Part shown: piece by piece, positions 26,700-53,267 of the stretch | How positions within the stretch are numbered: the stretch's first letter is position 1 | How the letters are laid out: every line of letters begins with the position of its first letter | Source of the DNA: Coptis chinensis | Lineage: Eukaryota; Streptophyta; Magnoliopsida; Ranunculales; Ranunculaceae | DNA length: 64,000 nucleotides | Assembly: GCA_015680905.1 (NCBI GenBank) | Contig: CM027379.1 | Location: 96,399,001 to 96,463,000 of the forward strand | Reading direction: 5' to 3' | Program-made: the position numbers and the translations under genes | The notes under the pieces: generated by a model | What the model saw: the letters and a program-made list of their open reading frames with translations, nothing else | Told to the model about the DNA's origin: nothing | Databases searched by the model: none

Positions 26700-27396
26700 G
26701 TGAAAGAGAAGGAAGGAAAAGGAAAAAAAGGGACAGAAAGGATTTAAAAGAACTTTATTCGTGTAGTATAGGTTGCAGTTGTTGGAGTTTGTAACCGGGT
26801 TCGTTCACCGTTTAAAAGAATATGATGCTTATTTGGATGGACTATAAAGTGTTGTAGAGTTTTAGTTAGTGTGCATCTGGTTATACGGGAGAGGTGATTA
26901 AGTAATTAATTAGTTTTGTTTGTGGGGTTCTTTGTGGTGGGGATGACAGCTGGGTAAGTTGGTAAAGAATGTGCGGCAGTTTTTTTCACCTGTCGACTTA
27001 CATTTTTTTTTTTTTTTTTTTCCGTTAAACCCTGTCGACTTACATTAATTAAGATATGAAAATATCAGTAGTTTTGATATTTTGATATATTTTATTAATA
27101 AGTGTTATTTCAGAGTTAAATGATAAGGCATAAAAATAAAATTAATAAAAGAATGTGACCTGTTACGATAAATTTGGTTAGGGTAATTTTTGTTATGCTT
27201 TCTTAACCAATTCTGCTCCAAAACAATGCATGATTGATATCATTGGGGTAATCTAGCTAGTCGAGATCATTACAGTGGAAGCAATATTCAATATTTAGTA
27301 AATTTTATAGTAAATATAGTTTGGTAGAAAAAAGTATGATGGCAAAAAACCTAATTGTTAAACTTAGACCAACAAATATGAAATATACTAAGTTAA
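26700..27396. other. upstream intergenic DNA
   Basis: AT-rich sequence with a T-run near 27004-27021. No gene seen. The last 50 bp (27346-27396) recur within the downstream tandem array. Confidence 0.5.
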
Positions 27397-28787
27397 GAGC
27401 ATCTCTAGGTGGTGGTAGTATCACTTTTAAATTTGAAGGCGAAATTTAAATAAATTTGACGCAAATTTTGACCAACTCTAGGTGGTCTCAAATATCGATC
27501 GCAAATTTGATTATAGGATCTACCACACGCGTCATTACCATTGTCGCCCCAAGTTAAAAAAAAAATTAAAAAAACAAAAAAACACAACGCGACATTCCCA
27601 CTGTCGCGCAAAATTGAAAAGTAAAAAAAGATAACCCACACAACAAAAACCTAATTGTTAAACTTAGACCAACAAATATGAAATATACTAAGTTAAGAGC
27701 ATCTCTAGGTGGTGGTAGTATCACTTTTAAATTTGAAGGCGAAATTTAAATAAATTTGACGCAAATTTTGACCAACTCTAGGTGGTCTCAAATATCGATC
27801 GCAAATTTGATTATAGGATCTACCACACGCGTCATTACCATTGTAAAAAAAAAAAAAAAAAAATAAAATAAAAAAAAAAAAACAACGCGACATTCCCATC
27901 GTCGCCAAAAATTGAAAAGTAAAAAATATAACCCACACAACAAAACCTGTTAAAAGACCAACAAATATGAAATATACTAAGTTAAGAGCATCTCTAGGTG
28001 GTGGTAGTATCACTTTTTAAATTTGAAGGCGAAATTTAAATAAATTTGACGCAAATTTTGACCAACTCTAGGTGGTCTCAAATATCGATCGCAAATTTGA
28101 TTATAGGATCTACCACACGCGTCATTACCACTGTCGCCCCAAGTTAAAAAAAAATTAAAATTAAAAAAAAAAAAAAAAACACAACGCGACATTCCCACTG
28201 TCGCGCAAAATTGAAAAGTAAAAAAAGATAACCCACACAACAAAAACCTAATTGTTAAACTTAAAATATGAAATATAAAGTTAAGAGCATCTCTAGGTGG
28301 TGGTAGTTTTTTAAATTTGAAGGCGAAATTTAAATAAATTTGACATTTTTTGACCAACTCTAGGTGGTCTCAAATATCGATCGCAAATTTGATTATAGGA
28401 TCCCAAATTACCACTTTATCGCCCAAAAAAAAAAAAAAAATTAAAATAAAAAAAAAAAAAAAACAACGCGACATTCCCACTGTCGCGCAAAATTGAAAAG
28501 TAAAAAAAGATAACCCACACAACATTGACAATGGTGCGTGACAATACCACTGGCGCAGTGTGTTGGTCAAAGTAAAAAAAAAAATTGAGCGACATTTGTA
28601 ATGGCACGCGATATTACCACTATCACTCTACATTCGTATCCCAAATCTCAAATTTGCTAACAAGTATGCGGCTAGACAGGTGGTGCGACCGAATTTGCTT
28701 CCACTTAGAGTTGGATTTCCGCAAAATTTCAAATTTTAAAAGTAAATTTGAATAATTTGGGAGGTGATACTACCACCTAGAGATGCT
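27346..28787. mobile_element. MITE-like element with internally amplified left part (about 300-bp tandem units)
   Basis: GAGCATCTCTAGGTGGTGG occurs at 27397, 27697, 27986 and 28285, with spacings of 300, 289 and 299. Its inverted complement, ending AGAGATGCT, occurs once at the right end (28780-28787). This is a TIR element whose left terminus has been tandemly multiplied. Each unit also carries the adjoining flank (AACTTAGACCAACAAATATG). The units share a CG-rich core around GCGACATTCCCACTGTCGCG followed by A-runs of variable length. The fourth unit is shortened. Minus-strand reading frames across the array are poly-Phe artefacts of the A-runs. Confidence 0.8.
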
Positions 28788-29073
28788 ATAATATTCTTTT
28801 CCATTCCATCATAAATAAAATACAAGAAAATTAACAACAACTTTAAAAAAAAAAGTGAAAAAAGAAAATCAAACAGACAAGGCTCCAAAGTAGGACACTC
28901 CAAAGATTTTTGTAAGCCTCCAGTATTTCCTCACCTCTCTCAATTAAATCCTTGTGAACCTCTATGCCTTTGTTCAGTTTGATGTTTGACATTGTCATAT
29001 GTGATTTGCATAGAGGGGTGTTGAAGTTTTAAAAGGTTACAAAAAATATGAATACTATTTCCTTTAATTTCAA

Positions 29074-29112
29074 CTAGTTTTTGAACCCGTCCTATAAACG
29101 GGTGCATTTATA
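29074..29112 (-). other. Helitron 3' terminal hairpin and CTAG
   Basis: The minus strand gives stem ACCCGT / ACGGGT with a 7-nt loop, a short spacer, and CTAG followed by T. Stem, spacing and end all fit Helitron 3' ends. Confidence 0.6.
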
Positions 29113-31649
29113 TAAATTATTCTGAAAAATATTTGCTACTATGCAGACTATGAGATATGAATATTATATTGACTGCTCATTTAAATTTCTTGTAACATGA
29201 AAACTCCGCTCTCCATCAAAAGAAAAAACTCATTAATGAAAAAACTGTAACGCCCGTATTTAAAATATGTATTTTTATATTTATTAATTAATTAAATTAT
29301 TTATTTAAAAATCGGCTGGATTGGATTTGGGATATGTGGGTGGTTTATGGTCCCGAGTCTGTGTTGGGCTTGGGTTTCAAACCCAAATATATAATCACAT
29401 TGTTCTAGAGAATAGGGTTTTTGGGAGAATAAAATATAATAAAAATGGAGGCAGAGCTAGAAACTCATTTGCTGGAAGGTGGAGCGCGACGATTCGGACT
29501 AAGAGGATTCGTGGAGTTGTTAAGCTAGGTGAGTAGAGTTTATTTCACACCACTACTAAAACTATGATTTTAAATGCATTTTAGTATTCTGAATTCTTGT
29601 CGAAAGTGTTTCCGACGAGTTTTTATAATTTTAGTTCTGTCGATATGTTTTAGATTTTAGTTGAACTGCTGAAGCTCGAAAGAGCGTTAATGGCGGTGAG
29701 CCAAAACAAGCAGTTGTTCGGTATACGGGTTGGAACTGTTTGTAGTTTATTGAACACTGTTTATATATTAAATCTTGTTTGGGGTCATTGGTTGATGTCG
29801 GGCTGTCGAAGCTCTGTCGGACGTCAATGGCGGCGCAAGACAGAGAGATTGTCTCTGTATACGGTTTAAACTTTTATTGTGTTTAATATGTGGTGTGTTT
29901 GTTGGATATGTTATTGATTGTTATTGGTAGATGATGGGTGAGGTCGAGTTTGAATTTTGTGGAGGCTGTCGAAGGTAAGAAATAGTTTTTATGGCGTCGT
30001 CTGCCTTAATTGATGTGGGTTGAACTCCTATTGTCGTGGTTAAGTTTGATTTAAGCGTAGTTGTTATTGGGAAGTGTGGGGTATGGGTTTTGACGATGGA
30101 ATGAGGGTTGTTAAAGCTTTGAACAGCGGCAATGGCGGTCGGGGGTCAAGTTTTGGAGGTGAGGGGAATCGTGATTTGTTGGTATGGGAAGATTGGGTTT
30201 TTCTATATGAGTCAAACCGTTGGGATGAGGGGGCGATACATGTGAGGAGTGGTGGCCGACGCGAGCTGGAAGTGGTGGAGGAGAGAGCTGCTGTGAGGAA
30301 GAAGGAAGAGGATGACCTGTTCCTCTTAGTTGGGCTTGGGCCTGAATCTATTTGGTTTGGGCCGGTTTCAGTTTTTGAGTTTTGGTTTATTGGTTGGGCC
30401 GGACCACATTAGTTAGTTTGGGCGTTCTATTTTAGTATCTTTGGGCCGAACCAAGTTAAGTTTTGGGCAATTCTTTTTGTTTTGTTTTAGGCCGAAATCT
30501 AGTAATGTGTTGGGCCAGTTCTAGATTAAGTTGTGGACCAATTTTGGTTTAGTTTGGACCCAGTTTAGGTTAAGTTGTTTGGGCTAAAACTAATCGCTTT
30601 TATTTGGACCAGTTTCAAGTTTGTTCTGGGGCCAGTCCATATAACTTAAAATAGATCTAATTGGGTCTTTACATATTTAGACTTTCGGTTCTAAGGTTTG
30701 GGCTTGGCTAGTTGGGTTCGAACCATTCCTTTGGTCATGAGCCCATGAGTCATGCACATTGCCCTTAGCCATGAACCATGACTATGACCCTGAACCTGTT
30801 GAACATAGAAACGACAGTTTGACTTTGACAATGACAGTTTGACTTCTACCATGATGTGTTGACTTTGACCGTCAACCATTTACTTTGACCGTCGACCGTT
30901 GACTTTGACCGTTGACTGTGGAATGTTGACTTTTTTTAGTTTTTTTCACATGTTTAAGAATATTGACAAATGTAGTAATAAAATATTATCGAAATTGTAT
31001 AACCTTGTTTGTCATTATCTAATTAAGTTTTGACGTGAGTAGTGCAATATAATATTGGCACGTAACCAGAGGGGAATTTTGATAACAAGACTTAGATATA
31101 TATGTTTTTATGAGTATTCAATTGTATACGAACTTAGATTCATAGACTTTAGATTTTTGGGATTTGATTGTGAACTATGGACTGTTTAATTGTGTTACGT
31201 TTTAGGTTGTAAATTGTATGGACAAATCAAATGTTAAAATGCTGTGGAAGCTTGTATAAATTTGGTTGTCATTATCTAATTAAGATTTGACGTTGATATT
31301 GTGACATTATATAATATGTTAAGTTGGGATATATATTTTAAATGCAATAGTTTTGGAGAAATAAATGTATAAACGCTCCATTATTTTATCTGTGAGATGC
31401 TAGTAGAGTATTTGTAGATATTTCCCACGGGAGTGTGGCGTAGTACAATAATATATTGGCACGTGAAATAATGAAATTGGTTATGAGATATAATTGAGAT
31501 ATTTCTAAATATTGTGGCTTAGTGCAATAAGGTATTTGACCTGCACGTGATATAGTGGAATTATTCTGAGATATATATGTATGACACTTGAATAAATTAC
31601 GTAACGAAAATCCTAGAACCTAGCTACCACAACTCATGTGATTTGCCCT

Positions 31650-31780
31650 GTGTGGCGTGTGCAATTTGATTGGCCCTTATGGCGTTTCAGTGAATCTGAA
31701 TGGCCTTCGGGCGTAAGTAATGTGATTGGCCCTTCTGGCGTTTCAGTGAATCTGAATGGCCCTTATGGCGTAGCCGAATA
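31650..31780 (+). repeat. tandem GATTGGCCCTTATGGCG-type repeat within the solo LTR
   Basis: Alternating units of GATTGGCCCTT(A/C)TGGCGTTTCAG and TGAATCTGAATGGCC recur across about 130 bp. They lie in the 3' half of the LTR. Confidence 0.75.
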
Positions 31781-32228
31781 GTGGCTTGATTATTCCGTTC
31801 GCAAAATAGAACGAGGCCTTGCCGATATTTTATGCCGAATAGTGGCAGTACTTACATAATGGCTTTCGTGTGAGGGTTACCTGGTGTACGACATCCCTCT
31901 CAGGGTAGTTACGCACAGAGTGGTTCATTATATAAGGGGAGGCATGTGGATGTACATGTTCGGCGTTGGGAAGCAATTGTGGTAGCCAGAGAAACTATGT
32001 AAGACATAGATACGACGTGATTTTAGGGACACACAAAGAAATACTTAATTAATATAATTATTGTAATATGTTGGTTAATGATATATCTTTAGACAGATGA
32101 TTGTATATGGTTTGGCATAAAGGTGGGTCAAACTAATTATTTGGGCAGAGACGACCCACTCTGTTATTGAGCATGAAATGCGGTACGGATATAATATGTT
32201 TGGTTGGTTATTTGTTTAGTTAGAACCT

Positions 32229-32405
32229 AAGGCGCCTCGATGGAGGAACTACATGCCTTATTTATGATGTGTATAATTTGTTGTGTGGTTAGTGGGAAGT
32301 TAAGGCGCCTCAGTGGAGGAACTACTTGCCTTAATTATTATACTTAAGGATGTTGTATTAGTTGTTAGAAGTTAAGGCGCCTCGGTGGAGGAACTAACTG
32401 CCTTA
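32229..32405 (+). repeat. 73-bp tandem repeat, three copies, within the solo LTR
   Basis: AAGGCGCCTC followed by GGAGGAACTA and GCCTTA occurs at 32229, 32302 and 32374. The units have diverged in their AT-rich spacers. Confidence 0.85.
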
Positions 32406-33054
32406 TGGATTGTGTAGGTATATGTATAAGTATATGTTGTATTTTAGAGTTACTCACACCAGCATTTTTATAATGCTTACCCGATTTGCATGTTTGCTTA
32501 TCGGGTGTGTTCATTAAATGAACATAGTTGATAAGTCTTGACAGGTTTAGTGTTGAAGAAGATGGGTTGATGCTTGTGGTTTGCGTTAGCGTCGCATTTC
32601 AAGATAGACTTTGTTTTCCTTTGAGGTGATATAGATTTTCAGTTGAGATAAGGTTATTTGCATTTTCATTTGTAAATTTTTGTAATGAATAGGACTTTTG
32701 TTTAAGTTAAAAATTTTATTGGTTTTTAATTATCCGCATATTTAAACTGTTTATGGGTTTTTGGAAGGGGAGAGTGCGTCACACCTCGGAGATCGAATAG
32801 TCGGGAACAAATAATGTTTTTCCAAATTCTGTCGAAATTCGGGGTATGACAAAAACCATTTGACTTATTTTTGTTGTTGGAAAATAGAGATTTTATTGAA
32901 GTCCTGTGTGAATGCCCAATAAGGCAATGATCATATTGAAGCTACTTGAATAAAAAACATTCCCAATTATATCAAAATAGATATGATAAACACTATTTTC
33001 AATGTAAAACTATATTTGTCGAGACATTATGACTACATATAATATAATTATGCT

Positions 33055-34255
33055 TTGTGGTTGGTTCAATGCATTTGGGCATCCAGTTTCTGATTTTCCA
33101 TTAATTATTCTTTGAGGTTAGTTCAATGTAGTTTCCTTAAGTTTTTTATTTTTTGCTAATTATTTTTTTGATGTTAGTTCAATACATTTGCATTTAGTTT
33201 CCGATTTTCCATTAATTATTCTTTGAGATTAGTTCAATTTAGTTACATCGAGTTGGTACTAACTTAATACACACGGAATCATTTTTCCAGTTTTTTTTTC
33301 TCCTACGAACAGGTGCTATTATATTAAATTACTTTAAAAAATATTAGCAACTATGCAGAGCTAGCTATGAGATATGAATATTATATTGATCACTCATCCA
33401 AATTTCTTGCAACGTGAAAACCACACTCTCCGTAAGAAGAAAAAACCCACATTTGTTAAAACCTTTCGATTTCTTTTTGTTGTTTGATAATAAAAGTTTG
33501 ATTGGAGTTTTGTAAAAATCCCAATGAGATGAAGATCATATCGAAACTACTTGAATAGCAGGGGTTTTGCCAATCATACAAAAAGATATATGATAAACAC
33601 AATTTAAAATGCAAAACTATATATGTCGACACATTTATACCATAATACAACTATGTTTTGAGATTAGCTTAATGCATTTGCATCTAATTGCTGATTTCCC
33701 GTTAATTATTTTTTGAGGTTAGTTTAATGCATTTGCATCCAGTTGCCAATTTCTCGATAATTATTCTTCGAGGTTAGTTTAATGCATTTTCATGTAGTTT
33801 ATTCTTTCCTGTTAATTATTTTTTGAGGTTAATTCGATGCATCCATCCAGTTTTTGATTTTGTGTTAATTATTCATTAAGGTTAATTCAATGGAATTGCA
33901 TCCAATTTACAATTTCTCATTAATTATTCTTTAAGGTTAGGTCAATGCATTTGGGTCAAGTTTCTGATTTATTGTTAATAATTCTTTTAGATTATTAGTC
34001 TAATGTATTTGCTTCCAGTTTCCGATTTCTTATTAATTATTTCTTAAGGTTAGTTCAATACATTTTCATCCAGTTTTCGATTTCACGTTCATTAATCTTT
34101 GAGGATAGTTCAATGCATTGGCATCAGTTCCCGATTTTCCGTTAATTATTCTTTTTAGTTTAGTTCAATGCAGTTGTATCTAGTTTACAATTTCCCATTA
34201 ATTATTTTTTGAAGTTAGTTCAATCCATTGGCATCTAGTTTCCAATCAAACATTA
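33055..34255 (-). repeat. minisatellite of about 60 bp in two blocks
   Basis: Units of the form TTAATTATTCTTTGAGGTTAG plus TTCAATGCATTTGCATCCAG and TTTCCGATTT recur about three times at 33055-33250 and about ten times at 33655-34255. The blocks are separated by a second copy (about 33290-33655) of the Helitron 3' domain, so the larger unit of 3' domain plus minisatellite is itself duplicated. Confidence 0.85.
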
Positions 34256-34683
34256 CATTAAGAAAAAATTATACATGATTCATTATATGCGATCATCAAC
34301 AATTGTTAAGTTTTTGATTTCTCATTAACTTGTAAAAACTGACATTCTTATATGCTTTGATAGATTTGTATACCTTCATATAGTTACAAATTATTAAACG
34401 GAATTGTGGTGATATTAGTGATATATGGTCGGGTTCTTTTTGATATTTTGATTGATGAAAAAGGTTTAATTCTTATGCAAAATATATTTATACATCTATA
34501 ACTCTTTGAGTTGTATTGGGAAATTAATGACCTCACTTCTATGAGAATAAATATCTATGAGTTCATAAAATAGTAGTGGTTCGTCTTTACCAATAGTTTC
34601 TCCATGCTCGGCTTGCATTATTTTCTATCCATTTTGTAAGCAATTATGAAACAATACTACAATTCATAGAGTTGAAATGATGG

Positions 34684-34755
34684 GACATTAATGGATTTGA
34701 ACCACCATCTCCTATACTTCTACACTCAAGTGCTCTTCCATTAAGCTAAAGATCT
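34684..34755 (-). ncRNA. tRNA-like sequence (degenerate tRNA or SINE head)
   Basis: The minus strand has TAGCTTAATGG (A-box consensus TRGYNNARNGG) and, about 40 nt on, GGTTCAAATCC (B-box consensus GGTTCRANTCC). D-arm-like and T-arm-like segments surround them. I could not form a convincing acceptor stem, and the anticodon stem is weak, so it is more likely a tRNA pseudogene or the head of an old tRNA-derived SINE. Confidence 0.4.
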
Positions 34756-35684
34756 AGTTTGAGATACATATATAAGCATAACATGGAACATAAATAATAA
34801 TGGTTTCCTTTAATTGAAAAAGTGTTCAAAATATATTAGATAAATAAAAAAGTGACCACCAACCACCAAGTCATGGTTTCTTGTTCTATAGCACATAGAA
34901 AACTACATAATAAAAGAACCCCACAGCTGCTTTAAAGCACAGGGTAACAGTTCTACATTGATTTAAACCAATTAACATTTTCAAGCTCCAGTTCAAAACT
35001 CAAGTTTATACCAAATTCAATAGACCACTTACTATTTTCTCTTGTTGAAGCAATTGAATTGAGTTATGAAAATCTGCAAGTACCAAGTACCTTGATAGCC
35101 ATGGGACGTCATTAGATCTTCCATTAAAATACTTGAAGTCTCACCACTATCTGTAGCAAACAGAAAATAGTAGATCATAAACTTTGGCGTAACAATAGTT
35201 ATGGATCTTCACTTGACATGCCTAAAGTTCTTATCGTAAAAACAGTTATAGGCATCCACATATGACATTGTCAGTATCTTTGACCACCTGACACACCTTA
35301 TGCACTCGAAGGATCAATAAATATATTCCCATTGAAGCTTTCTAGCTAGTGTTTTCAAGGATCAACAAGTCTTCTATTGCTTCAAAAACTTATAGACAAA
35401 TTATACAAATCTAATAAATGAATCAAATCAAACAAAAATAAAGACTTGGGAAGTCAAAAATCTCACCTCACTACAAAGATAACCACCAATTAAGTTTCGA
35501 ACATATTCGATAACCACTTTCACACACACACACACATATAAAGTGTTTTGTCGAGGAAATAGGTGCCTAAGTTTGATTTTTACATATTGTCATGTCCAAG
35601 ATACTAAATCAAAGGAAAATGTTATATACATGCAGATCTGGCTCACTCAATTTTTTTAAAAGTAACTGTTGGAGCACAAACCAC

Positions 35685-36262
35685 CTGTTGGGTATCCCAA
35701 CTATTTGTCACAGGCTTGTTATCGTTGTTTTCAAGAGTAATGTGCCTCAACAAACTGTTGGGTACATCCTTTACAATGTGCCACTTGACAGGGAAGCATC
35801 CATTCCATTAATCTTGTTGCCAGTACTCTACACCTCTTGTTAAAATCAATTGGACCCACCATCTCTGCAAGATCCACAAATTGCCCACTTGTGTTTACCT
35901 GAAAATTGGAGAAGAGACCTAATTAAACCAAAATGTTGAACAAGGAACGTAGGAAGCTGTCCTTAGAATATGAAGCACAAAACTTAAAATGAACAACAGG
36001 AACACAGAGCAATCACCTGACTTTTCCTTAGCCTTCGACCTGGTATCCAACATTCAATTTATTGTTTCCAATGGGAGTGCTAGCTCATGCACACTGTACT
36101 TGATGCACTTGTGCACATCATTTTCACTATAGGATTTTATAATGAATTTTTTTGCATCTGTGTACTTAACAAGAAATTCTTCCTTAGCTTGTTGTACTGT
36201 ATAGCATCGCACTCAAATTATCCTTGTTATCACTAGTAGCATTTGAAGAGAGTTTGCCCCTA
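35685..36262 (-). pseudogene. YTH-domain (ECT-type m6A reader) gene fragment with retained intron
   Basis: Two exons and the intron between them survive. The upstream exon (about 36262-35989) reads TDAKKFIIKSYSENDVHKC, then ASTPIGNNKL in a shifted frame, and SVFLLF at its end. The intron acceptor TTTTCAG is intact at 35899. The second exon (35898-35685) reads VNTSGQFVDLAEMVGPIDFN, EYWQQD, then [19 protein letters not shown] and NKPVTNS. It is 214 bp, one base longer than I expect from family members, because of a frameshift. A nonsense codon replaces the Lys after WQQD. These are hallmark YTH motifs including the aromatic cage region. Regions on both sides are absent, so only part of the domain was copied. 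It is non-functional and lies inside the candidate Helitron in its sense direction. Confidence 0.85.
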
Positions 36263-36841
36263 AATAGCTAATGTGCTAGTAGTAACCCCCTTTTGATTAG
36301 ATCATTCAGAATACATGAAGACAGGCCAGTTGGCTACACAGGTGGGAGAGCCTACTTTAGTACATCAGAGATTTTCTTAACTTGTATAGCTGTTGTACTA
36401 ATGCTTTGAAAAATTGGGGCAGAAATATACTTGTTACCCTCCCTAATATTCTTATCCTTCTCCTTTATATGTTAGGTTAACAGTCAGCCCACTTCATGTA
36501 ACAAACATTATGCCTTAGGCCCATCTCATATGAAACTTGTGACTGTCTTAAGCCAGTCAAAACATAATTGGTGCTTACCTTTTGATTCAAATCCCTAGGC
36601 TATACTACTGTTTCATGCAGTGTGCAATCTGGGACTTCTTTCCCCCAACCCATGGAAAACTCTAATATGCATGTGACATGCATTATTCAAAATGATGTAA
36701 ATATAACTACTACTCAGCTAGTATATGCATGGCTTTAGTGTTAATGGTAATAGAGTAAGCGAATTACAGGTACAAAGCATAAAAAGCAAGCAAACTACAG
36801 GTGCAAAACAAAATCCAAAAAGAAAGAAAAGAAAGATAGAC

Positions 36842-37091
36842 TCAGGTACTCTCCACCAGCTCAATGGGGATCATGATTTCGTTAGTGTTCAAAGGAAGCA
36901 ATGCCCAAGGTGTACCTTGCTATCAAATAGTCTCCAATCATCTTGTACCCACCTTTTTTCAAGCTCTTCATCAGTTTCTCAACTTTCTCTTCTACTATAG
37001 CTTCTGTTGCCATTCCTGAAAAACTTATCACACAACGAATTCTCCATCCTCCCTCCTTTATAACCACCTTCTCATCAATCGGTTTCGGTGC
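36842..37091 (-). pseudogene. SOUL heme-binding protein, last-exon fragment
   Basis: The minus strand encodes PKPIDEKVVIKEGG, FSGMATEAIVEEKVEKL and GGYKMIGDYLIARY, the C-terminal SOUL/HEBP pattern. A frameshift follows, after which another frame gives WALLPLNTNEIMIPIELVE and a TGA at 36842. Plant SOUL proteins end ARYNPPW...TNEVMIPVE, so a few bases were lost at the NPP position. An AG precedes the exon near 37092, as expected for an intron acceptor. The N-terminal exons are missing. It sits about 0.6 kb upstream (gene sense) of the YTH fragment. Confidence 0.85.
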
Positions 37092-37094
37092 TTA

Positions 37095-39418
37095 GTAACA
37101 ATGGGCACCTTAGTAAATGTTTGCATTTCTTCTCAAAACGCAATGTCAATATTGAGTTACTAACTAAGATTTGATGCTTTGTGTTAAGAGTTTATTATCC
37201 CTTCACTACTTAACACGCAACCCACAAATTCGCTACCAATTGGCTAACACAACGTTATAATTAACAATGATATTAACTTAAAAGAATTCATAATCCGAGT
37301 TAATCACAATCTACATACTAATAGAAATCCCCCGAATACAATTAATTGTGTCAAACAATGAACATGTTGTTAAAGCAGAATATTCAGTATTTTTAAATAT
37401 ATGTAATCAAATAAAATTATAATATGGCGAGGGGCAAGGAACCAAATCAAAATTTATCTCCTCATTTCATCCAAGGGCTTATTCCACTCTCTTAGTTACA
37501 TAATGATATATCTCACTTATAGATCTTATATTGTGAAGAGGTTCATTTAAATGCATTTGGCTTGAAATTCAGATTGAATTATATTCCTTTATGACATTCC
37601 AAGCATAATTTTATCATAAAGATAGAGGGTACACACTCATTACTAACAATTCATTTACGCGGTCATTGTCAAAGATAGATGGGCTGGTGAATGAATTACA
37701 TTAGGATCCATTAAAAAGTTCACATATATAAATCATACTTAACCATACATCCTTACACTCGCAGAATACCATTTCCCATACATTATTTCTAACTATATTT
37801 TGTCAATAATAATCTAAGACTTACCATACACCCAAAGAAGAAAGAAGGGCGGTACCTTTGAGGGAATATAAAAGTTGCATAGTCCTTTGTTCATGTACAA
37901 AATCCACATTTCACTTTTCTTTATCGTGACTACGATGCCACAAAAATGAATAAAGTATAAGAATAATAAGAATTATAAAAATCAATATTTGCTAACAATT
38001 GTAAATCGTGCAACTGTGCCTAACTGTAACAAAAGAGAGTTTGAATGCTAGAAAACAAAAAGTAGACAACTCATTCATAAATAACTAATTAATCGTGATT
38101 AAAACCCTAATATATTTAGAATACATTAATAAGCGAATAATAATAGATTATGGAACTCAAAATACGGAACCAATGAATCATGTGAAATTTTACCTTTTTT
38201 ATTTATTTATATTTACAGAAATTCTTGCCGACCTTCAAAGTGAAAAGCAACCACATCAACTTGGCGAAAAGCAACCACATCAACCTGAAGGGATGGAAAT
38301 GCTTATTTTAAATCAACAAAAGAGACTTTGTGAATATAAACAATAGATCAATTAGCATTGGCATCATTGTCATGCGGCAAAAAAAAAACTGCCGTAAAAT
38401 ATGCATTACAATGTAGAGTCTAAATTGATACAATAGCAAGTTCAAATATTAATAACTTCATTTTTGGAACCATTGTGTAGCTTGAACTAACATCATTTTA
38501 CACATGGAAGCTACATAATGAGGAAGCTGATATTAGCTTTGAATGTCAAGAGTTATAGTGCTCTTCATTATAATTATTAACATTCTCTATGGGTTACCTA
38601 TTACATATCCATCACATATTTTTTTTTTCAAATAACATGCCTCAATTCAGTAAGCTTCTCATAAAAAAGCGATTAGAAAAACTTGTTGGATCAAAATTAC
38701 TACAACATATTAAGGGAAAAAACCATCAACTGAATCATGTGAGATTCAAACGAATCTATAGCTCAAGAGGATATAATAATAAAAATGTTGATGACATAGA
38801 GTATACTTACCAGATACCGATAATTGAAGACTTCAAGTGTTTGTGGCTCAATGCTTAAACTTCACTATGCAAATTAAAAAAAACAAAACAAATAAAAAGT
38901 ACAACAATGAATAGATTGATCAAACGGTGGGCAGGTCTTATATATAATCTTGAATAATGATACATACCCTGCATTAAAAGATCAAGAGCAGAATAATACA
39001 TATCTAGATATTTTTAGGCTATATATGGTACTAACTAAACTACATGTAGAATCAAATTGCTTGGTATTCACCAAAAGTATACAAAATAGAAGATAACATC
39101 CGTAGGTTGTTTCAAGATCAACCCAGAGTTTAGTTCGATTGGAAGCGAGTTTGAATACTTAAGTTTCTTTTATTTGTTTTTCTACTTCTTTGGCATGTCA
39201 TCATTCTAGAATTGTGTTACATATTTATTTGTATGATGCCTCTCCACCCTTAGTCATGAGCATGAAAAGGTAATCGAATTACATAAGACTTCAATTCCCA
39301 CTCACACACACACAATCTCAGTTCAAGAGTGTGTATCAAGAAACATATAAACATTTGTTCGCTGAAACCCAAGCAGAATTTTTGTTGGTTAAACATTCTA
39401 AGTAGATCGCATGCACAA
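37095..39418. other. unrecognised internal Helitron sequence
   Basis: AT-rich. Short plus-strand frames at 38095 and 38589 have no family resemblance I can name. A 22-bp direct repeat (GAAAAGCAACCACATCAAC..) occurs twice near 38240-38285. Confidence 0.4.
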
Positions 39419-39630
39419 CCAAATATTTCAATGTTGGTCTAGCCATAAATAATAAGCATTCCAAGAAACTTTTCTAAGCATTATGCTATGTACTCCAAAT
39501 ATTTCAATGTCGGTCTAGCCATAAATAATAAGCATTCCAGGAAACTTTTGAAACTTTTCTAAGCATTATGCTACGTACTCCAAATATTCCAGGAAACTTT
39601 TCTAAGTATTATGCTATACACTCCAAATAT
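39419..39630 (+). repeat. tandem repeat of about 76-85 bp
   Basis: CCAAATATT starts units at 39419, 39495, 39580 and 39623, each linked to AAACTTTTCTAAG(C/T)ATTATG. The last unit is shortened. Confidence 0.85.
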
Positions 39631-39867
39631 TGTTTGTACTTAATAGTCTTTAAATAGTTGTTATTACCTTTATAACCACCCAACATCTGAAAGGCATTCA
39701 CAAATTGTCGGTGCAAATCTGATGACCAACATCTCCTTGCTTTTCTATGAGTCCTTGAGTTTGGAGTAAAGGCCATTCAACTTTCCCTTGTAATTAAAGA
39801 TAGATTATCTTCTTGGTTGCAAAACCATGAGGTGATTTTCTTCTTCATCTTTATATAGGGAAAAAAA

Positions 39868-40510
39868 AACTTCAATTATTCTTAGAATTGAATAAAAAAA
39901 TAATCTTTAGAGATAATTTGGTGGGGTTCTATACCGGAGTTGAATCCGATAAATAAAGGGAGAAGAAAGGGTTTTGGATGGGAAATAAAGGGTTTATTTA
40001 ATGTTGTGACGAATTGTATTTTATTTTTATTTTTTTAAGGCAAATTAGAAAGAAACAACGTCTAGATTTTTTTTTTTTCTTATTTATTGTATAGGGCAGT
40101 TTCTCTCATGTAATCATGTCAATTCCTTGCCTTCATAGGGTGACAAACGCAAAAATTAAAAATCAAACTAATTTTATTGGTATAGTAGACACTTATGCAA
40201 TTCAAGACTCAAGAGATGATTACATGGAAAACACAATTGCTATTAATTGAAACAAAAAAATAATAATAATAATAAATAAATAAAATTGAAACACTAAATG
40301 GAAGAGAGGCATAAGAACCACAAAGGTAGAGATAAGTAATGATGAAACCAACCTGAGAATTGCGAGAGCGACGATTATATAAAAACTCAATATTTCTCAT
40401 AATTGAATAAAAAAAATCTTTAGAGATAATTTGGTGGGACTCTTTACTGGAGTTGAATCTAGTAAGTGGGGGGAGAAGAAAGGGTCTGGTTTTATGAGTG
40501 TTGTGATGAA
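39868..40510. repeat. direct duplication near the Helitron 5' end
   Basis: Segments of about 110 bp at 39880-39985 and 40390-40500 share ATCTTTAGAGATAATTTGGT and GGAGTTGAATC. They lie about 510 bp apart, with the second copy about 150 bp from the candidate 5' terminus. Confidence 0.75.
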
Positions 40511-40664
40511 TGGATTTTTTGGGCTTAAGTTTTTTAACTTTCTTTAACTTTTTGGGTCGGGTCTACACAAACTTTCATTATTCTCTCCTAAATTTTCATA
40601 ATACCCATGCTGACGTGGATAACCTCAATGAGCTTGAAAAAGGGACTGTTATTATATATACAGA

Positions 40665-43600
40665 AAAAAAGTTAGGGAGACCAAATCCGGCCAACTAAAA
40701 GGCAAACACAAAATTACACAGACAAAAAAGTATAAAACATACTACCTTTGGTTGATTATCGATTATATCAGGCAACTTTAAGTTGTTGCTTTGACCCACT
40801 GCTGAATCATCTATTCCTGAAATCTTTTCCATGCTCACTTAACACATTTTCACCTAAAATAGAAACAATATAAAACAACCAATTACTAAAAAATCAATAC
40901 CTTAATAGAACAACACTTAATATGACGAAGCAATAACGCAATAAGAAAGATAAAATATAGAAAATTAAAATCAATTAACCAAAACCAAATTTATCTCCAG
41001 ATTGCACGAATTAAGATGGACATACGGCTAATTCCACTTACCTTAATATTAAAGTTGAAATTTTAGGGTGTTTGATCTATCTAAGAAATTTTAGAATTAC
41101 TAAAGTTGAAGGATCTAATCCTTCTTACCTTATTATTATAGTGAATTAGATGGTCATATGGACAATGTCAATGGCAAGTGCAAAACATACAGAAATAGTG
41201 CATGAAGAAAGCTCATTTTTCTATTGTCTTGCATACATTCGAGGAGAGACCAACCTAGTAGTAGACAAAGTTGTTAAATATCGAAAAATAATATGAGGAA
41301 ACAAAATGCCCTACATTTAAACTTTCAAAGGAAAAAAGATATAGAGATGAATATAGTATCAATACAATACCAATAAGTAATATTTCAGTTGCATAGGTTA
41401 TGCATTGTTCTCGCTGATTTAAAGTTAGCTATCTTATGACATTGCCAGGCCAAGAAATGGCTTTGAAAGTACTTGTAACTTGTAAGTGAATCAGTTCTAG
41501 TAAGTCTATGAGAACTTCATCAATAAATATACATTTTTTACACTGTCCCAACTGAAATAATCAAATGGTACTGATACTTTGTTCAAAATAAAAATTCATA
41601 TTATTATTTTAATCCTTGACAAACCACTCAAGCTGAAATTAAGGTGGAAGTAAGTTTTGTTCAAAATCGATTTCGTTGTTTGAAACATTGTTGATGAAAA
41701 CACGACCCCTACTTGTTAACAAAATACTGTATAGAATGCAAAAAAGAACATAAACTATGAACACCTAACTTAGATTGGGAATTTTGTTTTTGAATACATG
41801 TGATTCATCAACCTGTCAAACCACACCAAAGCTTTAGTTATAATAGCAAGCACACTAATACAGCTAGCTAGCTCATTGAGCAATTCCATGGATCGATTTT
41901 TGAAAGGGATTGTACACTCGCACTAAACAAATTACCAAACAAAAACAATAACAATGATATTAAACAAAAATGTAAAATAAATTGGACTAAATCGCAGAAG
42001 TATCACTGAAGAAGAATATACATATAGAGACATATAGTACTCACATGTTTCCTTCAATGTGATCACTTTAGCAAAAGGTTCCCCTGCATCCAAAAATATA
42101 AAGTTAAAAATACTAGTAATCTCCACTTCAAGAGTGTCATTACTACTACTATAGGTCCACGCAAATAAGAGTACTGAATGGATTACAAAACCAATAGCTT
42201 ACCAATTCGAACCTACTTTCAAAGTCTCCTATCTTGAAGAACGAACACTGCCAATCTGATTTCTACCTCATCTAAATACGAAGAAACGATTGTGCAAAAT
42301 AAGAAGAGGCATCATTAATGTCTTATCTAGGGTTTCTGAAAATGACCTATAATTATCCTATATGTCGACCTCTGCATAATCCATACAATTTTGATATGGG
42401 ATCCAATCTAATTAATTAGCCATTCTCAGTTCATTTAGAGCAAAATGATAAATTTATCTATGTGTTAGTTGTGAAATTGTTAGATTAATGATGACAAACA
42501 CAACACTCATTAATATAGTGGGATAAAGAATATACAAGAAAATGGACTTACAATGGTGGCAACACATAAGAGAAAGTTAACATGCATGAAACACATCATT
42601 AGTTATTTGATACTGTTTTGTTTAGTGCCACCTGAGACGTTGCAATGGGCTTTCTGGTCACAGAGACATGACCCTTCTGTCGCTTCTAGTAGGCAGCATA
42701 CTTATGCACCATGTCTTGGATAGTTGGATCCCTGCAAAAGCCACCAGGAACTCCGCCGCTTGTGATTTACTTAGCAGTTTCTTCACCACCAACTCTAATA
42801 TTGTCTTGTACCTGTGTCACAATGTTACCACCTAGCTAAAACGTTGTGGACGTTCAAGAACTACAAAGATGAAAACATACTTGAGTTGGAGAGTTTATGA
42901 GTCTGAGTTATGACTCTGTAAATCTTCTTCAACTCCACATGAATCAGGCCATTTTAGCACTACTGACAAATCAACTGTACTAAAACTCAATAAACCCTTT
43001 CATCCAACATCGAGCACCCTGATAAAGATCGTGAGAGCGAATATAGTAGTATGAGTATCATAGAAGGTCTCTAATTGAAACAACTTTTATTAAAAACTAA
43101 CAATAAAATCCTTGTTCAAGTCTATTATATTGGGTTATGGAATGGCAAAAAATTCATTAATGATATTGAATGGAAAGTGTACAATAGCACCATTCTCATG
43201 GATGACAGCGCCAGGCCTTTACAGTCCAGCAATGTTTATAGTTTGACATTTTACAACTTTCCCCACAGCTTCCAGTTTATTTTTATTAGAAAATACTGCT
43301 CAGTTACCTAGGAGCTAAATAAGCACTCGGTTTTCTATTTAGTTATACCTACCTATGTTTAGTTACTCTATGTACTGAGTAGTACCATACAGGCATACAC
43401 TATGTTATACACTGATACAAATTGTTGATATCTCAAGTAAAAGCACAAACAAACTAACCAAAGCCATAAGCAACATTTGTTATTCAACTTATCTACTTAA
43501 GATATCTCATCAAGCATCCGTTATATAAATCATAGTAAGACAAATTTAAAATTTGGAATTAAACTATAAACCAAAGCAATATAAAGAATTAAGACAACAC

Positions 43601-43782
43601 ATTTGTAATAAAATCTATCATCACCTCAAAATAGAATGTGATAAGAGTGGTAGCATACCATAGATCGATTTTTTTTTTTTTTTTTTTTGAAGAAGAAGAA
43701 TAAGAGAAGAAAATCAATGCCGAGCTCATACTTGGTTGTCCATCAGTTCTGCTCCTTGCGTTTCAGCAAAGTCTTAACAATT
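40665..43782. other. intergenic DNA, nothing clearly recognised
   Basis: AT-rich. The minus strand of 42590-42790 has coding-like texture (GGFCRDPTIQDMVHKYAAY then KRQKGHVSVTRKPIA) with stops; I do not recognise the family. Other frames are short. Confidence 0.35.
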
Positions 43783-43790
43783 ATAAATGG

Positions 43791-43989
43791 CATAGTTCGG
43801 GATTTTGGAATTCTCGAAATTCCGACAAATCCAAAAACCGGAATTCATTAAATTTCGACCCTATCACAGTCGGAATTTCGATGATTTTGGAATTTCAGAT
43901 ATTTTGACTCTATATTCGGAATTTCGGTTTTTTAAAAAACCAAAATATTAGGCGGAATTCCAACGTTTCGTTCGGAATCACGAACACTG
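43791..43989. mobile_element. hAT-type MITE, 199 bp, 8-bp target duplication
   Basis: ATAAATGG flanks the element on both sides (43783-43790 and 43990-43997). The ends are CATAGTTCGGGATT and, inverted, CAGTGTTCGTGATT. Inside, GGAATTTCGG-like motifs recur on both strands. The 8-bp duplication and short CA..TG terminal repeats fit hAT MITEs. Confidence 0.85.
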
Positions 43990-43997
43990 ATAAATGG

Positions 43998-46398
43998 TAT
44001 GTGTCATCTGATTGCGGCTACCCGAACAAAAAAGTTAGATGTATTCATTATTCGATGATATCCATATAATATACAGCATGTCTATGCCAGTAAATAATTA
44101 GAAGATCCATCCAATAGATTCAAATATATATAAAACCTTACACATTTGCATTTTCTTTACATTGTAATTCAATTGTTGTAAGAAAAATGAAGCATATGTT
44201 AGTTTTGTTAGGCCTGGTGCATTTGACTTTGGTTATTTATGCAAAAATATCAAGGGATGTGTTAAAGGCTGAAGCTCTAAACACATAGATGTAAACCACT
44301 CTCCAAAAAAAGGTGCAAGTGATTTAAAATTAAAATGTATCAGTAAACAGAGTTTTCATTATACAAAATATTAGAAGAGTTGGAGAGAGATAGAGAAGAA
44401 GGATACGTATAGGATACTCAGGCCAGACTGGGTCAAAGCACACCACCATATATTGAAAAATTTTAAACATCAAAGGTATCTAACTCTAAGGCACCAAACT
44501 TTCAAAGTCCTAACACAAAAAGCTATCGCCACTCTTGGTGAATCGTAAAAAATGTAAAGTCCAACAAAGATGTGAACCGTATATGACACATATCTTGGTT
44601 AAGTCGGAAATACCTCATCAGCTTACGTGTTTCTATTTTCACATGATACATCAGTTTTCCTTTGTGCGGGTCGACTACTTCAAAAGTTTTTCATTGACAA
44701 CCATGGTGCCGAATCTATTGTAACAAAGTGATGCATTTAGTTGAGCATCAATTGAATTAAGTGTCACCGGGCTAATAGTATAGGCGCTTATTGAAAAAAA
44801 AAACTTGGTATGAGTAGAATTATACCTGAAGAATATATGAGTAGAATGACCAAGACAATTTATCATATTCCTATTAGTGCCAACGGTGTTCAGTCCCCAT
44901 CCAGAATCTCCCTTGGGAAGTAGGAGTGGATACTATATCATGAACAAATTGTAAAATTCCATCTTGTGTCTGCACAATAATCTCTATTTATCCCATAATC
45001 ATTGGATCTTCTCCAACCAAAATTGCTAGGACTTAAGAAGCAGATCGATGGGACATTGTAATTGTGACATTGAAGAGTCTACAATTGTACAAATCTTCTC
45101 GCATTGATGGGAGAAGAAAGGGGTTTTTGAGAACAACCCGATAAAAGGAGCTTCAAATAACTATTCTCACTTTGATATACGATTGAAAGCCCTTACCTGT
45201 TAATTGAGTTTTTACTTTTGAGACACTATATAAATCCCCTCTTCATCGGGTTATATGCAGCTGTGAACGTGAAGATATCGATGATGAAGAAAATCTGTTT
45301 GAAGTGATTGATAAGCGTGAGTGTTGTTCATTATTTGATGTTTGGAAGAAAAAGAAAGATTATTACCTTTTTCTCAGAGTGATTTTAGTTTTCTACGATT
45401 CCCATATTTCTCTCTGGATATTGACTTTGGCTTTGCCTAACAATAAGTTAATTTAAGTGCTTTGAGATGAGTGTGTCGACTTTTGAGTGCAATGACTTTT
45501 TGAGTACCACGGACTTCACCTCTTACAATCGTGCATTTGATTATTGTTATGAGATAGCTATCCAACCGTGATGGCTCAGGAACTGGCTTAAAGATGGGAT
45601 TGGTAGGGTCCTTTTTAGGCAATGGTTCTTGTCATGCGGCTTTACGTGTCTTGTTCTTGGCCCCGTCATTTAAGAAAGGGAAATGAAGGTATTTATAAGT
45701 GCAGAAAACAACGTTAGTTAAAACAGTTTTCAGAGTGTGTCCATGAATTATCTCCTTTTTGAAGCCATGATTGCTCTTTGGGCTTGCTTGGCGTGAAAGG
45801 TTTTGGTAATAGAATTGAAACCCGAAAAACAACCAAATAAATAATTTCCTCGCCATAGTTTTTCAGATAAGGAAAACTATACGCTAGTATATAAAAAAAA
45901 AAACGAAAGAGAAAGCACTAACCTTTTGTTGTTCCATTGTGGATCATCCATGCATTCAATCAAAAACTCTACATTCCTCTCCATAAATGGATTGGTTGAT
46001 AGCTGTAGAGCGATCATAATCACACTTAATCGCAAAAAGAACCTCAAGAGTTCAATGATTGACCAAAACTGAAGGAGTCGGGTAAGAAGTTTCAAAATAA
46101 TTAAAGAATAACCTGTGGTGACAGTGTGTATCGACTTCCAAATCTGTCATAAAGGCACTGATAAGTGCTGAATTTGAAACTTTGATCTGATAGAAGCAAA
46201 AAAAAAAACGTAAACAGAAGTGAAATATGATTGTATGATTCATATGAAGCAATCGGATCCAGATTCCTTTGCTTCTAGGAGGGATTCAAATGTGGATTCT
46301 GAAGAGATAACTCAAATGAGATAACTACATTTTCCTTACTTGCGTGCAAAAAAAAATAGATAACTGCATCAGGGTTAATAATTTTGGTCTTAGAGTTT
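43998..46398. other. intergenic DNA, nothing clearly recognised
   Basis: Small frames on both strands (for example 45437-45856 and 45877-46252 minus) show no domain I can name. No repeats of note. Confidence 0.35.
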
Positions 46399-46479
46399 TA
46401 GGGCCATTTGTTTTTGCCTCTTATAAGAGCTTGAAGTCTTATAACCTATCAAGGACCATTAATACTGAGTAGTGGAAAA

Positions 46480-47250
46480 TGCTCCCAGGCACCCACGTCA
46501 GCCCCATTTTTTTCTCTGAGACTGACACATCAGATTTTTTATAAAAAAATGAATTCTACGCCCTTTTTTGCTGATTTCAATTGTTTGTAGCCCAAAATAA
46601 TTACTCTTTTTTCAATTCTACAAAACACTCCCAACTCTCTAAAAAAAATTCATCTCTTCAAACCCTCTCTCTTATTCTTCTCTTCTTCCAAAATTAAACG
46701 AGTGTAGCTCACAGGAGATGACATTCTAGGTCATCGACTCATCATCTTATTAGGCTCCCCTGAATATGTCGCAGATTAAACTCTATGTTCTTCTCTCAAT
46801 TGAAGGAAGCGACCAATACATAGAGTATGACAAAGAAAAAGAATGGGGAAGATTCATTAATATTGAATAGTTGAGAATGCTCCCTGTGACCCACGTCAGC
46901 CCCCCTTTTTTCTCTAAGACTGACACATCAGATTTTACATAAAAAAAAGAATTATACGCCTTTTTTTGCCGATTTCAAATGTTCGTTAGATAAAAACCTT
47001 TTCCATACTCTTTTTTCAATTCTCCAAAACACTCCCAACTTTGCAAAAAAAAAAAAAAAAACACATCAGATTTTATATAAAAAAAAGAATTCTACGCCCT
47101 TTTTTGCCGATTTCAATTGTTTGTTAGATAAAAACCTCTTCCATACTCTTTTTTCAATTATCCAAAACACTCCCAACTTTGCAAAAAAAAAAAAAAATCA
47201 TCTCTTCAAACCCTCTCTCTTATTTTTCTCTTCTTCCAAAATTAAACTAA
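46480..47250 (+). repeat. three tandem copies of the Helitron 5' domain
   Basis: Blocks at about 46480-46710, 46888-47045 and 47062-47250 share ACTGACACATCAGATTTT, TACGCC(C)TTTTTTGC and CAAAACACTCCCAACT. The first two also share AATGCTCCC and CCCACGTCAGCCCC. A-runs vary in length between copies. Confidence 0.85.
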
Positions 47251-47712
47251 GAAATTGTTCAAGATGACGAAATTAAGTTTATGGACGAGGTCAAAAAGGA
47301 TGATAGAGTGATGTCAAAATTACAGAAGATGATGTGTTCTTCATAAGAAATTGTTCAAGATGATGAACAATTCTATACTGCAATTTCAAGATGATGAACA
47401 AACAACTTATGGCCGGGATCACTCATTATTTGTTTTTTCGGTTTTGGTTACAGAAATAACGTGTTGCTAGAAATTCTTGATAAACACTGTTTTCAAGAGA
47501 ATGAAAAGATTAAGAAGCAAGAGAATGAGCACTCATCAAACTGTTTCTCATAATATGATTTTCTGTATTTACCTATGGATTTCCGGTATGTATACACTCT
47601 TATTCACTTTATAACCCAATATCTTTTTTTCGTCACTAAATTAAAACTTTGGAAAAAAAAACTATCTAATTACAAAATCATCTACCCTTCGAACTTATTC
47701 TTCAACAAACAT

Positions 47713-48104
47713 GATGTCGGGAAGGTCATGGAAGTGTTGTAGATTGGTGGACATTCGGCATTTTTCTATACAAATTGATTCACGGGAAGACGCCATTCAG
47801 AGGCAATGGTAATCGTGAGACATTGTTCAATGTTGTTGGATGACCGCTCAAGTTCCCAGATGGATCCACTTTCAGTTTTGCTACCAAAGATTTGATTAGG
47901 GGTTTGCTTGCAAAGGACCCAAAACAAAGATTATACAAAATGGGAGCTATAGAAATCAAGCAGCATCCATTCTTTGAAAATCTTAATTGGGCTCTTATTC
48001 GTGGAACTCAGCCTCCAGATATTCCAAAACCAATTGATTTAAATTGTGTTGACCAAAGTGTTAAATGTTACAGGCCACAAAGTGAGAAGGGAGCAAGTGA
48101 TTGA
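47713..48104 (+). pseudogene. AGC-type protein kinase (AGCVIII, D6PK/PVPK-like) C-terminal fragment
   Basis: A single frame reads [38 protein letters not shown], then a TGA stop at 47841 in place of a conserved Gln, then PLKFPDGSTFSF, DLIRGLLAKDPKQRL and AIEIKQHPFFENLNWALIR, ending at 48104. These are subdomains IX-XI and the C-terminal extension of plant AGCVIII kinases. One residue is missing after KQRL. The catalytic half (Gly loop, Lys, HRD, DFG) is absent. The fragment lies inside the candidate Helitron in its sense direction. Confidence 0.9.
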
Positions 48105-50305: not shown

Positions 50306-50375
50306 AGATAGATATATTTCTCCTGAGCAAGTACCAATTCAATATGGTGGTTTGAACAAGGATGGCGATGCGTAA
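50306..50375 (+). pseudogene. patellin (SEC14-GOLD) exon scrap
   Basis: After a TTTATAG acceptor-like sequence the plus strand reads YISPEQVPIQYGGLNKDGD, the conserved segment at the start of the patellin GOLD domain (YI(A/S)PEQVPVQYGGL). It ends in a stop, and no other patellin exon was found nearby. Short, but the motif is distinctive. Confidence 0.6.
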
Positions 50376-51028
50376 TTACTGCTTATGCAGTATTGAGGTT
50401 ATTATCAATTGAGACATTCAAGTTCTTTGTTGTACTAACTCCTAATGTTGCAGTGATCTCATTTTTTTAACCAGTTATTTAACTGCTCTGGCATTCGTCG
50501 AGACGGTTAAGTAGCTGGGTTAATCAATGAGAAGTATATTGTTTTAAATTTTCAGGTTATGACAGGTTTTATATTTATGAAATGTCAAAAATACAGAGGA
50601 GACTCTGTTGAAATTTTTCTAGAAAAGTCACGTACTTTAGGTATATAATTGTTCGAGTTTTGGGGCGTTGGACTCGACAAAAAATAATTTATTTACCTTG
50701 CATTGAGTGGTTGTTGGGAAAGTTCAATTCTGATTCCAGGGTAAAATTGCTTCTCTATTTTTTTTTCAGTAATATGTTATTTGCTTTTAAACTAAGTCGA
50801 TGACAAGTGATGATTTTACTACCTCCTTTAACAGTTTAACCCATTGTTTTGTTGGTGTTAATTAACAAATTTCTCTAATATTTTGTATTGGTGCAGATGG
50901 ATATTTAATATCTGGAATGTTTGCATTGGCTAATGAAGTTCATTGCATCGTGCGCTCCTCTTCTTGGGATTACTTGATCTGATGAAATTTATCAGTATGT
51001 TTTCACCAAATCTATTCTCTTTTTTTCG

Positions 51029-52705: not shown

Positions 52706-53204
52706 AAGATAGTTTCCTAAAATCGATATTCTAATTATCAAAATTGATTTGAAACCGAAAATCAAACTATACGTTTGTTTCAAATTAATATATTCAAGTT
52801 AAATATGATGTAAAGTAGGGTTATATTTGTCAAATAACCATCTATAAGATGTCATGTATTTATTTTTTCTATTTTTACAAGTGCTTATAAAAGGAACTTA
52901 AAATTAAAAACAAACCACTTTATAAGACCATCTTATAAGGCCCTCTTATAACACATGGTCTTATAAGACCCTCTTATAACTTAACCTAAAAAAACAAATA
53001 GCCCCTTAGTTGTGCTTTTCTACGTGAATTTAGAAGTAGAGAAAGAAGGTTTTGGGGGAAGTGGAGAAAGAAGGTTTTGAGGGGACCGTGGGGTATAGAA
53101 TCGTATTTGTGGGGGACTCATATATAATTCCTTTTTTCTCTCCTTTTTTCCGGGGGGTTTTTTTTTCCTCTCCTGATTTCAAGTGAGTAAATAGGGTACT
53201 TAAA

Positions 53205-53267
53205 ATTAGCCGACGTGGACAGTCTCATAGCGCAGCAAAAGGGACTGCTATTATATATATATAAAGA
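53205..53267 (-). mobile_element. Helitron-like 5' terminus (minus strand), partner end not found
   Basis: The minus strand reads A then TCTTTATATATATATAATAG and CAGTCCC, followed by CCACGTCGGC. It closely matches the 5' end proposed at 40664, including the A-before-TC context. I could not find a convincing hairpin-CTAG partner. Confidence 0.5.

Follow-up and report, generated by a model that had tools for sequence, protein, structure and literature searches.

A probable non-autonomous Helitron copy in Coptis chinensis carrying captured YTH and SOUL DNA

The window analysed here is a 64,000-nucleotide stretch of the Coptis chinensis genome (contig CM027379.1, hereafter C3; C3:96,399,001-96,463,000; genome 936 Mb, 116 contigs). 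Positions 29074-40664 of the window are very probably a single copy, apparently dead, of a non-autonomous plant Helitron, which lies on the minus strand and carries DNA captured from two genes, one coding for a YTH and one for a SOUL protein. The evidence supports the Helitron assignment, its orientation, its 3' boundary and capture at the DNA level, and it favours the 5' boundary. Both ends of the element are repeat boundaries, and three sharp-ended relatives carry the same fused YTH-SOUL cargo. The features on which this reading rests are as follows (window coordinates; a slash marks an element edge).

29074..40664, minus strand: non-autonomous Helitron copy, 5' end at 40664 and 3' end at 29074, repeat boundaries at both ends
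29074..29103, minus strand: 3' terminal 30 bp with hairpin and CTAG/T, from repeat boundary and fold
35657..36298, minus strand: captured YTH gene fragment, frame broken, 87% to C8:80.2410-80.2416 Mb, Pfam YTH
35899..35987, minus strand: retained YTH intron, from alignment with the parent
36293..37093, minus strand: captured SOUL fragment with about 0.55 kb of 3' flank, truncated, 79-82% to C3:76.91 Mb, Pfam SOUL
37092..37093, no strand: deletion junction, 0.37-0.41 kb kept in five siblings being absent from the window
40584..40664, minus strand: 5' terminus, TC at 40664-40663, outer base T not A, repeat boundary

The genome was searched piecewise with the putative 3' end, cargo, body and 5' end, and sibling loci were extracted and compared. 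The best 40 of 2436 candidates were scored for the 3' end (211-bp query around 29074), the best 40 of 79 for the 5' end (query 40440-40720), the best 40 of 49 for the YTH-SOUL cargo, the best 40 of 156 in the search that gave the matches to 38550-39418 and 39661-40022, and the best 40 of 147 for 39861-40022 with the 5' terminus and a 132-bp repeat. All 23 candidates were scored for the SOUL region and all 6 for the joined flanks (empty site). Locus counts are lower bounds because each search scored at most about 40 candidates. Matches lying wholly within 33640-34260, 33040-34260 or about 33000-34300 were excluded from the locus comparisons, as were low-scoring rows; one comparison kept only matches >150 bp.

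The YTH fragment, presumably of an ECT-type N6-methyladenosine (m6A) reader, matched Pfam YTH with an E value of 3e-16 in a three-frame scan in which stops were masked as X. The parent at C8:80.24 Mb has long open YTH exons within the 3.6 kb read of the gene. The intron is 89 bp long in the parent, and its splice donor GT is lost in the window copy. The same scan gave SOUL an E value of 1.6e-5 and 25.4 bits, just below the Pfam cut-off of 27; the SOUL open frame alone scored 32.3 bits, above that cut-off. The SOUL stop lies near 36845, and the captured piece extends about 0.55 kb beyond it. The SOUL-like gene at C3:76.91 Mb belongs to a group of three on C3 with spacings of 74-82 kb. It holds one in-frame stop and hence may be a relative of the donor, not the direct donor; the donor-like gene shows no intron in the matching stretch. 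The SOUL capture edge, TTTCCAAG, is identical in six siblings. The DNA deleted at 37092-37093 comprised SOUL coding sequence and some element sequence, and the sibling C3_31 diverges just past 37093. We infer that the YTH and SOUL pieces are without protein function, because their frames are broken and the splice donor is lost.

Genomic DNA was the template for capture, since the YTH intron was taken along, as was about 0.55 kb of flanking DNA on the 3' side of SOUL. This agrees with an earlier note on this DNA, which had proposed DNA-level capture of YTH and SOUL fragments in the same orientation, about 0.6 kb apart; the two coding parts do have one orientation and lie about that far apart. 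The retained introns of that note came down to a single one, the YTH intron. Its SOUL last exon was discarded: the donor-like gene and five siblings go on coding for SOUL beyond 37093, so in place of a last exon with an intron there is an unbroken coding stretch that a deletion later truncated. An origin of the YTH and SOUL pieces as retroposed transcripts would account for SOUL as an intronless stretch, but the donor-like gene is itself intronless there, the SOUL piece runs past its stop, and the YTH intron is kept; retroposition was rejected on this last point and is the least credible of the explanations weighed here.

YTH and SOUL DNA abut at 36293-36298, where the two donors overlap by 2-3 bp only, as read from the alignment. 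The junction is present at no fewer than nine loci, namely the window (W), C6, C3_31, C3_39, C3_41, C5, C7a, C8y and C7b, so the two fragments do not have different flanks in every relative, the finding by which the earlier note would have been overturned. YTH DNA with its intron and SOUL DNA, joined by one junction at nine loci, are host gene fragments multiplied together with the element, as in a gene-capturing (transduplicating) Helitron. Four further loci (C4a, C9, C2 and C4b) have SOUL DNA but no YTH DNA. An unrooted tree groups these four with C7a, C8y and C7b (ultrafast bootstrap 92), which suggests that they lost YTH; the same tree puts the donor-like SOUL genes inside the window lineage, a placement that is weakly supported (48-52). 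The cluster of three SOUL-like genes to which the donor belongs speaks for a tandem array or segmental duplication with no mobile unit involved. Such an origin is nevertheless highly improbable, because the copies are spread over C2-C9, three of them have exact Helitron ends and unrelated flanks, and the donors lie on separate chromosomes (C8 and C3). Among the five papers listed by a literature search, none reports Helitron capture of YTH or SOUL.

Three side observations concern the cargo. Two junction-bearing loci, L028 and L029 (C3:39.57 and C3:41.67 Mb), seem by eye to contain a fragment of a WAT1/MtN21-like membrane protein gene on the other strand. Six loci (L036, L037, L038, L040, L041 and L042) carry a fragment of the same YTH gene from a common start, equivalent to window position 36106; they are probably an independent transduplication, because the five that were aligned (all except L038) share a deletion over the intron donor. 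At L017 and L018 (C3:76.84 and 76.76 Mb), a window-type 3' end is found some 0.3 kb away from SOUL-like sequence belonging to the donor cluster, and the two point in opposite directions.

Sharp ends were obtained from three junction-bearing elements: C7a (C7:17.501-17.513 Mb, 11,818 bp), C8y (C8:5.072-5.083 Mb, 11,256 bp) and C7b (C7:1.104-1.114 Mb, 10,146 bp). They are 94-99% alike over most shared blocks, with some blocks at 90-94% and the lowest at 86%. Each spans A/TCTTTATATATATATAATAGCAGTCCC to CTAG/T, and the three flanks are unrelated. Thus all three show TC...CTAG termini, the insertion form A/TC...CTAG/T and no target duplication. Because they carry the junction, the YTH-SOUL fusion has travelled by Helitron transposition. 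In the window copy the ends read T/TC...CTAG/T, with CTAG at 29074 and TC at 40664-40663, and terminal inverted repeats are absent from the termini as read directly.

At the 3' end, matches other than the window's own begin at 29070-29073 in 21 of the best 40 (of 2436 candidates) and at 29066-29068 in 7; 2 begin further out (29053 and 29062), and 10 start inside the element. On the forward strand A precedes CTAG in all 12 motif-fitting 3' ends of the extracted loci, the window included, which corresponds to CTAG/T in element orientation. A GC-rich hairpin, which a Helitron is expected to have about 10 bp before its 3' end, folds at -10.5 kcal/mol in the window and at -13.3 kcal/mol in C7a. The last 30 bp of the two are identical at 27 positions and form the same hairpin. 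ACTAG with a 6-bp stem was observed once in the window, against a mean of 0.69 and a maximum of 4 in 100 first-order random sequences, so the hairpin motif by itself is not significant and was rejected as evidence. Since the bare motif is expected 0.69 times per random window, the argument rests on repeat boundaries and not on the hairpin.

At the 5' end, 39 of the 41 matches other than self end at 40643-40672 (best 40 of 79 candidates). At seven or more other loci, the terminus (40584-40660) is matched 106-149 bp beyond a match to 39861-40022, with order and strand conserved. Seven such loci are C3:121.32, C4:40.86, C7:46.12, C5:91.92, C2:47.15, C3:25.41 and C6:8.33 Mb; at C6:8.33 Mb the terminal match is short (40593-40653, E 6.8e-4), the terminus being shorter there. 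In the window, the gap between 39861-40022 and the terminus is 561 bp and holds a 132-bp repeat. Two features and one nearby terminus are needed here.

39661..40022, minus strand: element backbone linked to the 5' end, order-conserved with the terminus at seven other loci
40245..40376, no strand: small dispersed repeat of 132 bp in the 5' region, at least 15 matches elsewhere (best 40 of 147 candidates)
53006..53267, minus strand: 5' end of a Helitron of the C7a/C8y/C7b subfamily, continuing 45844-46295 past a 6.7-kb interruption

The minus-strand Helitron of the earlier note and its 3' end at 29074, with hairpin and CTAG/T, were borne out by the two repeat boundaries, the fold and the three sharp-ended relatives. 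Its 5' end at 40664 held as a repeat boundary, linked to 39861-40022 at seven loci; as a precise position it is less secure, since the exact first base is fuzzy and the flanking base is T. That note had also seen the sequence of this end in the terminus at 53267: the terminal part does resemble it, whereas the subterminal domains differ.

Several observations weigh against the assignment of 29074-40664 as one element. The base at 40665 is T and not A, giving a TT site, and TC is inconsistent among other 40664-type ends; parts of the Mothra report (PMC4683698) name TT as an occasional insertion preference. The 29074 and 40664 ends were seen together only in the window, the 5' ends of C6, C3_31, C3_39, C3_41 and C5 lying outside the sequence read, so that their linkage rests on overlapping loci. 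Among the loci compared, only the window's own sequence matches through 38617-39864, and C4:58.63 Mb matches only as far as 39418 (78%). The joined flanks gave no contiguous match, and hence no empty site, among the six candidates scored; the three copies with differing flanks serve as a substitute. Pfam detected neither a Rep nor a helicase domain in the three minus frames of 32853-40664, and no genome-wide RepHel search was made; the copy is hence classed only as non-autonomous. Finally, the 40245-40376 repeat and a right-flank repeat, 40706-40820, lie 1.55 kb apart in window order at C6:5.14 and C6:5.16 Mb, with a 3'-end match 9 kb to the left of the first 40245-40376 repeat at C6:5.14 Mb, and L071, at the C6:5.13-5.16 Mb locus, may align weakly across 40664. 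A comparison of the left flank of the window element with L071 gave no result.

As an observation on that locus, C6:5.132-5.161 Mb has a 3'-end match, 40245-40376 and 40706-40820 in window order, and the latter two recur as a pair 18 kb on. Such an arrangement would fit an element extending beyond 40664.

The same locus is one of the points in favour of a longer element, whose real 5' end would be 53267, 24.2 kb from 29074, with 40664 as an internal, older 5' terminus. The three sharp-ended junction-bearing elements all have a 53267-type 5' end. Moreover, 45844-46295 and 53006-53267 are collinear with C7a, C8y and C7b (53006-53267 and 45844-46295 are 93% and 90% to C8y, and 83% and 82% to C7a), A/TC holds at 53267, and between 40664 and 53267 only one weak 3'-end motif (49195) occurs in this orientation. 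Yet window 38616-45844 is absent from C7a and C8y, 40664 is a boundary in nearly all of its matches, and 39861-40022 goes with a 40664-type end at seven loci, while at three loci it occurs together with 35560-35650. We therefore consider the 24-kb element unlikely. The terminus at 53267 is either the 5' end of a second minus-strand Helitron, for which no 3' end of its own was found, or, with the longer element, the 5' end that belongs to 29074.

With 29074-40664 as the preferred element, the ends of C7a, C8y and C7b call for an explanation, as their end domains show no match to those of the window element past the terminal 30-55 bp. Replacement of the ends of the cargo element is favoured over a 24-kb composite because of the 40664 boundary and the linkage of 39861-40022 at seven loci. 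One YTH-SOUL fusion may have passed between Helitron subfamilies of this genome through the exchange of both its end domains, the cargo outliving its vehicle; we regard the chances of this as evenly balanced. The window lineage would then be of the 29074/40664 type, and C7a, C8y and C7b would have another 3' domain and the 53267-type 5' domain; the SOUL-only copies may have a third 5' end. A candidate 5' end is visible by eye in C2. If the swap is true, captured DNA behaves as a module exchanged among vehicles and not as a passenger of one family.

Helitrons transpose by a RepHel rolling-circle ('peel-and-paste') route, which is established for the family. The window copy would have been moved by the enzymes of an autonomous relative. 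SOUL may have been captured before YTH, each as genomic DNA. Jukes-Cantor distances to the donor are 0.116-0.153 in nine copies of SOUL; those of YTH are 0.091-0.126 in W, C6, C3_31 and C3_41, but 0.21 over 143 bp in C7a. The distances favour this order only weakly, because the SOUL copy on C3 may not be the direct donor. One putative route of capture is read-through of a weakened 3' terminator into the flank, up to the 3' end of a neighbour; another is template switching with short microhomology during repair. In the rolling-circle model described in parts of the Helraiser report (PMC4778049), bypass of the 3' end yields capture and new ends. That model with 3' bypass explains the relic terminator at 33280-33325 and growth on the 3' side. 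Template switching fits equally well, because backbone flanks the captures and the junction overlap is 2-3 bp.

That an existing element acquired YTH and SOUL through template switching or filler-DNA repair and not through 3' bypass, a reading that leaves the element itself the same, has in our judgement slightly less than an even chance. The backbone segments 35560-35650 and 39661-40022 flank the captures and are found in order, 0.5-1.8 kb apart, at C6:8.33, C4:93.80 and C9:65.72 Mb, loci that look like backbone copies without captures; the short donor overlap at the junction points the same way. Against this, a bypass that ended in the 3' part of a neighbouring relative yields an identical picture, and the relic 3' end hints at bypass of an old terminator, though not in the capture of the YTH and SOUL fragments. 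Whichever route was taken, a solo long terminal repeat (LTR) and deletions would afterwards have eroded the window copy. The remaining features of the body are listed below; the nested LTR, the relic 3' end and the tRNA-like piece were not in the earlier note.

29246..32851, no strand: nested solo LTR of 3606 bp, TG...CA, target duplication AAAAC at 29241-29245 and 32852-32856
33280..33325, minus strand: relic of an older 3' end, hairpin and CTAG lost, 29090-29232 against 33301-33449 an 80% match
33649..34246, minus strand: 3'-domain tandem repeats, each about 55 bp
34682..34755, minus strand: tRNA-like sequence, Rfam RF00005 at 32 bits (gathering score 29), E 0.0088
35560..35650, minus strand: element backbone adjoining the YTH capture, matches at C6:8.33, C4:93.80 and C9:65.72 Mb
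37093..38616, minus strand: element body common to siblings, 91% to C6, 89% to C3_39 and C3_41 as far as 38159

The sequence is uninterrupted at the LTR site in six siblings (L002, L003, L004, L005, L006 and L008). The relic 3' end near 33300 folds at -2.0 kcal/mol, and the doubled 3' domain is also present in L002-L004 and C6. Tandem repeats related to those of the window occur in C4a, C9, C2 and C4b, where they were detected via window 33045-33254. ARAGORN reported no tRNA in 28800-41200, and the tRNA-like sequence is probably a pseudogene. The sibling C6 (C6:47.34-47.355 Mb) matches window 32846-34270, 34106-36449 and 36451-38616 at 88-91%. It is interrupted between 36449 and 36451 by a retrotransposon with two 3.1-kb repeats that are 94% alike, and its end part is, by eye, hidden behind an apparent second LTR. 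At C4:58.622-58.632 Mb, the 3' end matches at 88%, the SOUL flank at 94% and 38550-39418 at 78%.

No other Pfam domain above the cut-off was found in 32853-40664 (three minus frames), 40665-45650 (six frames), 46290-53010 (three minus frames) or 48500-53010 (two plus frames). Matches below the cut-off in the scanned frames were eIF3h_C (E 0.04), DUF4325 (0.023) and FBD (0.033). In the neighbouring sequence, window 53457-53908 and 62929-63380 form a direct repeat pair with 90% identity and a spacing of 9.5 kb, which may be the LTRs of a retrotransposon, and a tandem repeat of about 300 bp (87-90% identical) occupies 27345-28524, just left of the element.

The window copy and its siblings show in good resolution how a plant Helitron has shuffled exons and introns, and they add no new mechanism. 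The probable donors, capture edges, relic terminator and cargo loci, at least 13 in number, permit study of the order of capture and of end replacement, and a possible use is as a test case for end bypass versus template switching.

Pack-MULEs and gene-bearing CACTA elements also transduplicate gene fragments, and they have terminal inverted repeats and target duplications, of about 9 bp in Pack-MULEs. In contrast, the three sharp-ended copies described here show neither, and Pack-MULE membership was rejected from the ends and flanks of C7a, C8y and C7b. The Helibat/Helraiser elements, as far as parts of PMC4778049 describe them, share the 5'-TC/CTAG-3' ends and the hairpin terminator. Helraiser differs in being animal, autonomous and experimentally tested, whereas the Coptis element is known from sequence alone. 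The non-autonomous Mothra Helitrons, in the portions of PMC4683698 that bear on their structure, have a TC 5' end, a CTAG 3' end, an upstream hairpin and insertion at AT or sometimes TT, as here. Unlike the present copy, in which no RPA domain was found in the three minus frames of 32853-40664, their mother element codes for RPA. Further parallels come from maize, for which stepwise capture and multiple, partly damaged termini have already been published (PMC3288121, in part). The ZmhelA-type Helitrons of those sections resemble the Coptis element in their TC/CTRR ends with a hairpin, in gene fragments added in successive steps, in internal pseudo 3' termini with a damaged CTAG and in internal sequence lost between copies (PMC3288121). 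The present case differs from that part of the maize account (PMC3288121) in the plant and the genes concerned, and in that the fused cargo is also found here with different subterminal domains at both ends.

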